Assembly: GCF_018424605.1 (NCBI RefSeq)
Contig: NZ_QTKT01000004.1
Location: 248,001 to 312,000, forward strand
Direction: 5' to 3'
Source of the DNA: Marinobacter lipolyticus
GTDB taxonomy: Bacteria; Pseudomonadota; Gammaproteobacteria; Pseudomonadales; Oleiphilaceae
Length of the DNA stretch: 64,000 nucleotides
The notes beneath the pieces were generated by a model. That model did not search any database. It saw only the letters and a program-made list of their open reading frames with translations, and was not told where the DNA came from. This document shows positions 2,307-51,467 of this stretch, piece after piece. The position numbers and the translations under genes were made by a program. Each line of letters starts with the position of its first letter. Within the stretch, counting starts at the first letter, position 1.

Positions 2307-2672
2307 ATGTCAGAAACGATTTTCACCAAGATCATCAACCGCGAGATCCCGGCGGACATCCTTTACGAGGACGACATCAGCCTCGCTTTCAGTGATATCA
2401 ATCCCCAGGCGCCGGTGCACTTTCTGGTGATCCCGAAAAAACCCATCGCGACGATCAACGACCTTACCGAAGCGGATCGGGAGCTTGTGGGGCACCTGTA
2501 CCTGGTGGCCGCAAAGATCGCCAAAGAGAAGGGTTTCGCGGACGACGGCTATCGCGTGGTGATGAACTGCGGCGAGAATTCGGGGCAGACGGTGTTTCAC
2601 ATCCACCTGCATGTGCTGGCCGGCAAGCCTCTGGGGTGGCCGCCTTATACGGACAAAATGAAGCAGGTCTGA
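2307..2672 (+). CDS. hinT: HIT-family purine nucleoside phosphoramidase HinT
   Basis: A 121-residue HIT protein. The histidine triad HIHLH lies at residues 98-102, preceded by the usual SGQTVFH, and the N-terminus ETIFTKIINREIPADILYED is a classic HINT-branch start. These cytosolic dimers hydrolyse adenosine or guanosine phosphoramidates such as aminoacyl- or lysyl-AMP. The length equals the usual bacterial HinT. AAGGAG lies upstream of the ATG. Downstream is a convergent gap with two large palindromes. Confidence 0.93.
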   Translation: MSETIFTKIINREIPADILYEDDISLAFSDINPQAPVHFLVIPKKPIATINDLTEADRELVGHLYLVAAKIAKEKGFADDGYRVVMNCGENSGQTVFHIHLHVLAGKPLGWPPYTDKMKQV

Positions 2673-2711
2673 TTCTTTTGTGGGTTGTTCCGGCGTTTGA
2701 CCTTGGGGGCG

Positions 2712-2821
2712 GCAAGCGGATTGGTCCTGCTATTTGGGACACGCTCAAGGCATCCATGCGCGCTTAGCTTTGGCCATCCATGGCCAAAGATAGTCCCAAA
2801 TAGCAGGACCAACCCACTTGC
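2712..2821. repeat. Palindromic intergenic element A
   Basis: Arms of 29 bp (2712-2740 and 2793-2821) pair with two mismatches; the inner 20 bp next to the core pair perfectly. They enclose a 52-nt core (2741-2792). The core contains ACGCTCAAG, CATCCATG, CGCTTA and an inner hairpin of 10-bp arms centred on CCATCCATGG (2768-2789). The element lies between convergent hinT and phoU. Its core matches that of element B (reverse strand) at 45 of 52 positions, but its arms have a different sequence. Confidence 0.85.
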
Positions 2822-2899
2822 TCGAACTGGGTGCCCATCCATCAAAGTAATTTGCGGTGCTTCAGTGGAAGCAGGCGGAAGCTACTCAAAGTTCCGGTT

Positions 2900-3009
2900 G
2901 GCCGGTGTGTGGTTCGGCTTTCCGGGACTATCTTTCGCCATGGATGGCGAAAGATAAGCGACCAGGGATGGCTTGAGCGTGTCCCGGAAAGCCGAACCAC
3001 ACACCGGCC
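2900..3009. repeat. Palindromic intergenic element B, inverted relative to A
   Basis: Perfect 29-bp arms (2900-2928 and 2981-3009) flank a 52-nt core (2929-2980), exactly the geometry of element A. Read on the minus strand the core has ACGCTCAAG, CATCCCTG, CGCTTA and an inner hairpin around CCATCCATGG. A C-G pair in the inner stem replaces the G-C pair of element A, a compensatory change. A and B are in opposite orientation, 78 nt apart; I see nothing else in the spacer or the flanks of this 362-nt gene-free stretch (2673-3034). Confidence 0.85.
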
Positions 3010-3034
3010 CTCCCCCCAAGCCTAAAAAACAAGA

Positions 3035-3757
3035 TCAGCGGCCGACGACTTTCTCAGCCTCTTCCACCGGCGTATGTCGAACGTCCTCGCCCTTGACCAT
3101 GAAGATCACGTTCTCGGCAATGTTGCAGGCGTGATCGCCCACTCGCTCGAGGGCTCGAAGCACCCACATCACTGACATGCAGCGGGAGATGTTACGGGTG
3201 TCTTCCATCATGAACGTCAGCAAAGTGCGCGTGGCCGCCTGGTATTCTTCGTCCACCCGTTTGTCTTCTTTCATGATCCGCAACGCCTGCTGTGAATCCA
3301 GACGGGCAAAGGCGTCCAGGGCATCGTGCAGCATGCTCAGCACATGGTTGCCGATGTGGCGGACTTCCACGTAGCCGCGGGGGGCCTGACCTTCCTCGTT
3401 GAGCTTGATGGCGAACTTGGCGATTTTCTTCGCTTCGTCCCCGACCCGCTCCAGATCCGCCACCATCTTGATGACCGAGATCACCAGCCGGAGATCCCGG
3501 GCAGTGGGCTGACGGCGGGCGATGATCAGGGTCGCCTCTTCGTCGATGTCCATTTCCATCTGGTCGACTTTCTTATCACCGGCGCGCACTTCGTCTGCCA
3601 GGTGACCATCGTTATCCACCAGTGCCTGGATGGCCCGGTCTACCTGGGCTTCCACCATACCGCCCATTTTCAGGAACTCGGTTTTGAGCTCCATCAGTTC
3701 GTCGTTGAACTTGTGGGAAATGTGGTCGCCGTACACATCGTCCTTTTTGGTTGGCAT
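3035..3757 (-). CDS. phoU: Phosphate signalling regulator PhoU
   Basis: A 240-residue, all-helical PhoU. It has the two tandem three-helix bundles with the repeated acidic metal-binding signatures (QMEMDIDEEA and LERVGDEAKKIAKF in the first; ISRCMSVMWVLRALERVGDHACNIAEN in the second). PhoU couples the Pst transporter to the PhoR kinase and represses the Pho regulon when phosphate is plentiful. The start is the ATG of MPTKKD, with GGAG upstream; an upstream in-frame TTG is less likely. It is the last gene of the pst operon, 33 nt after pstB. Confidence 0.95.
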   Translation of the reverse strand: MPTKKDDVYGDHISHKFNDELMELKTEFLKMGGMVEAQVDRAIQALVDNDGHLADEVRAGDKKVDQMEMDIDEEATLIIARRQPTARDLRLVISVIKMVADLERVGDEAKKIAKFAIKLNEEGQAPRGYVEVRHIGNHVLSMLHDALDAFARLDSQQALRIMKEDKRVDEEYQAATRTLLTFMMEDTRNISRCMSVMWVLRALERVGDHACNIAENVIFMVKGEDVRHTPVEEAEKVVGR

Positions 3758-3790
3758 AACTCTGTTCTCCAATATTCTGCAATAACCGGA

Positions 3791-51356: not shown

Positions 51357-51467
51357 GGCACTTGGTTAGCAGGGCTTTCCAAAACACGCTGTGAATACAT
51401 CCCTGTACGCTCCGCTCCGCCATCCATGGCTCCGCAGGGTTTTGGAAAGCCCTGCCAACCAAGCGCC
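51357..51467. repeat. Palindromic intergenic element C
   Basis: Arms of 29 bp (51357-51385 and 51439-51467, two mismatches) flank a 53-nt core with ACGCT, CATCCCTG, ACGCT and CCATCCATGG in the same order as elements A and B. The inner stem is shorter (GCCAT/ATGGC). It lies between two convergent genes, the zinc-finger membrane protein and the rhomboid; one arm begins right at the end of the first gene's stop codon. Confidence 0.8.

Follow-up and report, generated by a model that had tools for sequence, protein, structure and literature searches.

Dispersed Marinobacter palindromes with paired hexaloops resemble TwoAYGGAY RNAs and are candidate two-site CsrA/RsmA-binding clamps

Within the window, by which we mean the whole 64-kb stretch of Marinobacter lipolyticus DNA analysed here, a HinT-type histidine triad gene (2307..2672, + strand) lies upstream of the convergent phoU gene (3035..3772, − strand). 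The former has its best NCBIfam HinT-family match at E 5.5e-41, below the curated cut-offs, and the latter scores 252.9 bits against TIGR02135 (cut-off 130). The gap between them is occupied by two palindromic elements, A (2712..2821) and B (2900..3009), each assembled from a 29-bp arm, a 52-nt core and a second 29-bp arm, and separated by a spacer to which no strand is assigned (2822..2899). We define the sense strand as the one bearing the ANGGA loops, which is the − strand in A and the + strand in B. The arms of A (2712-2740 and 2793-2821) form Watson-Crick pairs at 27/29 positions, the remaining two being G.U on the sense strand, and those of B (2900-2928 and 2981-3009) at 29/29. The core of A (2741..2792, −) displays loop 1 at 2775..2782, an A(N)GGAX hexaloop with a C-G closing pair, and loop 2 at 2751..2758, both reading CATGGATG on the − strand. 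The core of B (2929..2980, +) displays loop 1 (CATGGATG, 2939..2946) and loop 2 (CAGGGATG, 2963..2970) on the + strand.

These coordinates, the shared 29/52/29 geometry and the agreement of the two cores at 45/52 positions on opposite strands reproduce the first-pass annotation of this DNA, which had also reported one compensatory G-C to C-G swap. The swap is real and the count is not: four of the seven core differences make up two such swaps, one in each inner hairpin, and one further difference falls at N, the free position of loop 2. In A and B hairpin 1 pairs throughout; main-type copies carry a GGA/GGA internal loop there (read by eye). RNA folding of the two elements, tested on four strands, gave z scores between −11.0 and −15.8 (−11.1 for A and −15.5 for B as listed for each element), with 0/200 shuffles as good, and the folding energy of A was −75.4 kcal/mol on the sense strand versus −66.9 kcal/mol on the other. 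The hairpins of A and B are not a product of chance, and a palindrome finder detected three palindromes in the real window versus one in 30 triplet-shuffled copies of it.

A gathering-level Rfam scan of the window yielded zero matches. Among the matches of a 501-base stretch, A and B were the top two, both to RF01731 TwoAYGGAY (E 8e-5 and 8e-4), and each covers model positions 1-168 of 168, comprising both AYGGAY hairpins and the external stem. Neither A (39.1 bits, − strand) nor B (34.8 bits, + strand) reaches the gathering score of 43 bits, and RF01731 gives 37 rows (E up to 10) in the host genome as a whole, the highest of which (42.7 bits) also stays below that cut-off. With these end-to-end, sub-threshold matches, the earlier remark that no named family with this design was known is not supported. 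TwoAYGGAY is listed in a table of Weinberg et al. 2010 with taxa that include Gammaproteobacteria (PMC2864571); a 2014 text pointed out its likeness to CsrA motifs, proposed CsrA binding and recorded its external stem as poorly conserved (PMC4333381), and the family is named among those with a revised structure in Rfam 15 (PMC11701678). The "private arms" of A and B are this poorly conserved external stem. A and B share with RF01731 the two AYGGAY hairpin loops and the ill-conserved external stem, but differ from it in scoring below the cut-off and in the full pairing of hairpin 1, where main-type copies have the GGA/GGA internal loop. Inspection by eye for the tandem G.A that marks one inner stem of RF01731 showed GGA facing GGA in main-type copies and complete pairing in A and B. 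Further differences are that the host-genome elements are present in dozens of dispersed copies with rapidly changing arms and that a relative has long forms with nested inserts. Among the titles and abstract openings listed for the family name, the accession, or CsrA together with repeats or intergenic elements, none describes the copy number, arm turnover or pairs.

We built a covariance model, R1, from 51 copies, including A and B, which score 90.5 and 97.8 bits against the model they helped to train. A third copy in the window (51357..51467, − strand; 102.9 bits) has a main-type core and private arms. R1 matched 82 rows in the host genome, corresponding to 77 distinct places. Of the first-pass reading, many copies, a conserved core and private, self-complementary arms hold up. 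By PhoU, the closest named relatives belong mostly to Marinobacter. Across the genus, 118/120 genomes contain a match, several of them with fewer than ten copies. Four Marinobacter genomes gave 6, 9, 99 and 109 model rows, the two larger numbers (genomes G510 and G511) not being cleared of opposite-strand echoes of the kind that reduce the 82 host rows to 77 places. At E up to 1e-4, R1 matched 67/369 genomes of the class, a count that is partly unconfirmed as the model can match other palindromes. The palindrome finder confirmed 25/29 loci of other genera, where the core plan is the same and the arms are mostly private, and was negative in 7 of 20 further stretches (three of the 20 from the host or its genus), including 4/4 from genome G388.

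We then described the loops with a loop-blind palindrome search (arm score of at least 18, spacer of 44-65 bases) covering the window and parts of two further Marinobacter genomes (~0.69 and ~0.66 Mb) that share orthologs, so that their elements are not independent cases. Of the 85 palindromes recovered, 78 have two CANGGAYG loops on one strand and the remaining seven depart from this in a single loop, where Y is replaced by A or G; CANGGANG is present in 170/170 loops. Shuffled cores (900 in all) never contained two CANGGAYG loops, and 12 contained a single one. CANGGANG is the CsrA/RsmE hexaloop. RsmE structures associate high affinity with an A(N)GGAX hexaloop whose N and X loop out and which sits immediately on a stem closed by C-G (PMC4005645). 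In the elements, the variable loop positions are precisely N and X, and C, A, GGA and G are fixed. At least two A(N)GGAX loops closed by C-G, as looked for in a CsrA-binding RNA, were found in the elements of three Marinobacter genomes. The rule is looser outside Marinobacter, with a pentaloop at one locus (L183) and a U-A-closed loop at another (L189), both read by eye.

The host genome encodes csrA. Joining two lists by eye, we found csrA in 54/55 element-bearing versus 226/259 element-free genomes that are at least 90% complete (p 0.015, kinship ignored), and in 62/67 versus 251/302 when all genomes are included (p 0.06, kinship ignored). A csrA match was absent from five element-bearing genomes, one of which (G335) is 98% complete. 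CsrB and RsmX/Y/Z are sRNA genes with several CsrA sites each. The elements are like them in that short stems carry A(N)GGAX loops (PMC4005645), and E. coli CsrB belongs to the same Rfam clan as RF01731 (CL00106). They are unlike these sRNAs, of which RsmZ combines several sites in one molecule (PMC4005645), in being distributed over many loci with two sites each and in the negative outcome of the promoter and terminator searches.

Pairing of the arms is nearly complete despite their diversity. Over the 51 copies, standard pairs of many types fill 98.7% of 1325 arm cells, double changes occur in 25/26 arm pairs, and 489 arm cells are changed on both sides versus 132 in shuffles. The inner ~11 arm bases follow a common pattern (about CTTTCCRAAAC), as does a GGG 17-19 bases from the core, each base of which is present in 75-90% of host copies, and positions beyond these are nearly free. 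The arms are therefore self-complementary and mostly unlike one another, as first described, but not wholly unrelated.

The rare departures from Watson-Crick pairing are asymmetric. In the host, 37/1216 arm pairs are non-Watson-Crick, with 25 G.U versus 0 A.C on the sense strand and 6 G.G versus 0 C.C. The G.U:A.C ratio is 18:0 and 22:0 in the two other genomes with common orthologs and 11:2 in 31 elements of other genera. Since equal G.U and A.C counts would be expected if a cruciform, or both strands alike, were under selection, this excess suggests that the target of selection is likely a single-stranded hairpin of the sense strand, most simply RNA. A strand-biased mutation process could also yield such an excess. 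The first-pass proposal that RNA or cruciform structure is selected is retained for structure, with the cruciform disfavoured by the strand-specific mismatches.

On the family resemblance, copy number, loop rule, pairing and strand-specific wobble established above at the level of sequence, we consider it probable that the elements are dispersed two-site CsrA/RsmA-binding RNA clamps of the sense strand, whose transcription, CsrA binding and effect, as a sponge or on mRNA, we infer. Each element would act as a structured RNA of about 95-120 nt, with two CANGGANG hexaloops presented by the core at a distance of about 23-25 nt, a form that would suit a single CsrA/RsmA dimer with its two sites. 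Outside the core, the long stem would serve as a clamp that closes and stabilises the loop platform; if it is such a generic clamp, its sequence should be nearly free as long as it stays paired. Dispersed copies may provide CsrA/RsmA sites to whichever transcripts contain them and, jointly, form a CsrA/RsmA sponge. Copying between the arms, by template switching at the palindrome, may help to make and mend them, as we infer, and selection on the sense RNA would purge unpaired arm states. The near-random orientation of the elements relative to their neighbours and the negative promoter searches are the weakest point of the model, as they bear on how the sense strand would be transcribed.

REP/BIME elements and MITEs are dispersed intergenic palindromes that form inverted pairs, and the elements are likewise dispersed, intergenic, palindromic and found in inverted pairs. 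Where two copies lie no more than 400 bases apart, they are arranged − then +, sense strands outward, in 13/14 cases in the host and in 5/5 and 8/8 in the other two genomes (26/27), and the ten classed host pairs lie in colinear or convergent gaps, never in divergent ones. Conserved boxes lie directly outside both arms of host copies (a first flank motif search had been mixed with another repeat). The one before the element is about ACTCnnAAGTC and the one after it about CACCnAAGC; together they recall an imperfect direct repeat and are unlike promoters. Together with the many copies in many genomes, presence/absence and orientation that differ between species (read by eye) and a G.T tolerance that would also suit a single-stranded DNA hairpin, these features would fit a selfish palindrome of the REP kind that a transposase moves in single-stranded DNA form, and whose loops and clamp would serve a mobility protein rather than CsrA. 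We regard this explanation as unlikely. It leaves out that the loops obey a protein-type rule, that of CsrA, down to the variable positions, and copying of such a palindrome should bring the arms along. Paralogs with a core edit distance of 0-2 have a mean arm identity of 0.54-0.56 (108 comparisons, three genomes), barely above the 0.51-0.53 of distant cores (>5), and reach an arm identity of at least 0.7 in 7/108 versus 67/2718 comparisons. Same-site pairs between species with equally close cores, on the other hand, average 0.84 and reach at least 0.7 in 11/15. Arms are thus not simply copied with the core, as had been argued from A and B alone, and by paralog arm identity the copies lack the common terminal repeats of REP elements and MITEs. 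One exception is genome G207, in which a larger repeated unit carries the arms unchanged, implying that arms persist when the DNA around an element is truly duplicated.

The tempo of arm change is evident in syntenic DNA of M. maroccanus and Marinobacter sp. EhC06 (stretches L092 and L094), where the finder identified 42 and 43 elements, respectively (one of the 43 being a chance palindrome), forming 29 same-site, same-strand pairs. Neighbouring DNA of these pairs is 89-98% identical (about 93%), whereas arm identity ranges from 1.00 to 0.42, with at least 0.95 in 10/29 pairs and less than 0.7 in 14/29. The core is at least 88% identical in 24/29 pairs, including 10/14 of those with different arms. 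The four other different-arm pairs differ in the core too, and their members may be distinct elements; one or more of the four, among them that at hinT-phoU, opposes an A-type to a B-type element. Near flanks are mostly altered as well in the 14 pairs, and intergenic identity averages 91% without an element (n=186) versus 74% with an element, the element being masked (n=30). Where arms are at least 70% identical, 37 positions are altered on both sides, 19 by transversion-type and 18 by transition-type changes against a background of 62% transitions, and 10 of the 15 one-sided changes are G.U. The double changes are without the transition-type excess predicted for pair evolution via G.U, which copying between the arms would explain. 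Template switching has been proposed as a maker of such double changes (PMC8794818), and the elements are like the hairpins described in that paper in having perfect stems that arise and are repaired through paired changes; they are unlike them in forming one dispersed bacterial family, for which the source of new arms was not found. Comparison of new arms with the old locus flanks (150 bases per side, 16 low-identity pairs) gave a longest match of 6.25 versus 6.40 expected; derivation of arms from the local flank through template switching was not supported, the shared strings being no longer than at mismatched loci.

In the same comparison, 23 element rows had no same-strand partner and four were unanchored. 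We read 22 of the 23 by eye, excepting one with a 1049-base gap: several were nested inserts or elements missed by the finder in the other genome, one was a chance palindrome, a few were deletions and a few were empty sites without arm sequence. One site, accounting for two rows, is flipped between species with different outer arms (G510:C33 ~32321 versus G511:C23). At several hinT-phoU loci, the arms of A-type or B-type elements are recognisably the same in several species, with paired changes (read by eye). In the close genomes of ELB17 and M. gelidimuriae, only 2/15 elements stand at common sites (L212/L215 and L214/L217), and the arms of these orthologs are strongly diverged yet paired.

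Gene context, obtained with a crude codon-bias gene caller, does not confine the elements to convergent genes, as the site of A and B had suggested: among the 49 host copies classed out of 51, 15 lie in convergent, 28 in colinear and 6 in divergent gaps. In colinear gaps the element strand is close to random, matching the neighbours in 16 cases and opposing them in 12. Stretches of another Marinobacter genome show enrichment of convergent gaps (9/36 with an element versus 31/352 without, p 0.006) and no depletion of divergent ones (10/36 versus 68/352). The enrichment would fit a 3′-end insulator or transcription terminator between neighbouring genes, as would the scarcity of T-tailed terminators in hinT-phoU gaps with an element (3/24 versus 6/13 long gaps without, p 0.04). 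The latter contrast fades when 24 short element-free gaps, four of them with a terminator, are added (3/24 versus 10/37, p 0.22). We judge this function improbable: colinear gaps hold many of the copies and divergent gaps some, and the GGA loops and their strand would go unexplained. An intrinsic terminator, including the bidirectional one first suggested, was rejected: a T-run follows the stem in 0/51 copies on the sense strand and 2/51 on the other, no more than in shuffled flanks. Searches for a sigma-70-like promoter in 2500-3200 and for a promoter-like motif in the element flanks were likewise negative.

If template switching during replication were all that keeps the palindrome or DNA cruciform perfect, and the RNA had no function, this would account for the rapid paired changes in arms and nearby flanks and would recall imperfect inverted repeats described as mutational hot spots (PMC7202029), but it is the least probable explanation and already disfavoured by the host strand asymmetry (G.U and G.G each without their A.C and C.C counterparts), the fixed loop letters C, A, GGA and G and the retention of the core in pairs with different arms.

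Returning to the two-site RNA clamp, a bolder and more tentative extension is that the host harbours a genome-wide distributed CsrA sponge of dozens of clamps, in which hypermutation rewrites both arms in step and spares the core; related species would then bear the same core at the same site with different stems. The usual picture of Csr regulation has a small number of sponge sRNAs beside mRNA leaders. Dozens of dispersed two-site elements would shift the amount and location of free CsrA in the cell, and paired arm rewriting around a stable core would offer many replicates per genome pair for studying the origin and upkeep of perfect stems.

Several variants accompany the elements. Long forms (L260 ~1700-1900, G510:C1; similar in L256-L323) carry an insert of ~80 nt, itself structured, in the hairpin-2 loop. 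Similar inserts occupy seven sites whose counterparts in the other Marinobacter genome are short forms (read by eye), with both arms nearly unchanged at three and one arm at one more, and the insert may be a second mobile element targeting these loops. At row 172722 (G511:C23 side), the hairpin-1 loop contains an insert of another kind, which has a GGA-loop hairpin of its own. Among 80 phoU loci, those adjoined by hinT have gaps of ~30 bases, one or two elements, or other hairpins; reading by eye distinguished an inverted pair (L093), a half-and-half fused element (L082) and an orphan arm (L081), and the gaps of other Marinobacter species (L105, L107 and L118) contain T-tailed hairpins of the form GGGGTCAGA...TCTGACCCC. 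Near some elements, several intergenic gaps (L256-L323) also contain another dispersed palindrome, about GTAGGTCGGATTAGGCGAAGCCGTAATCCGACA.
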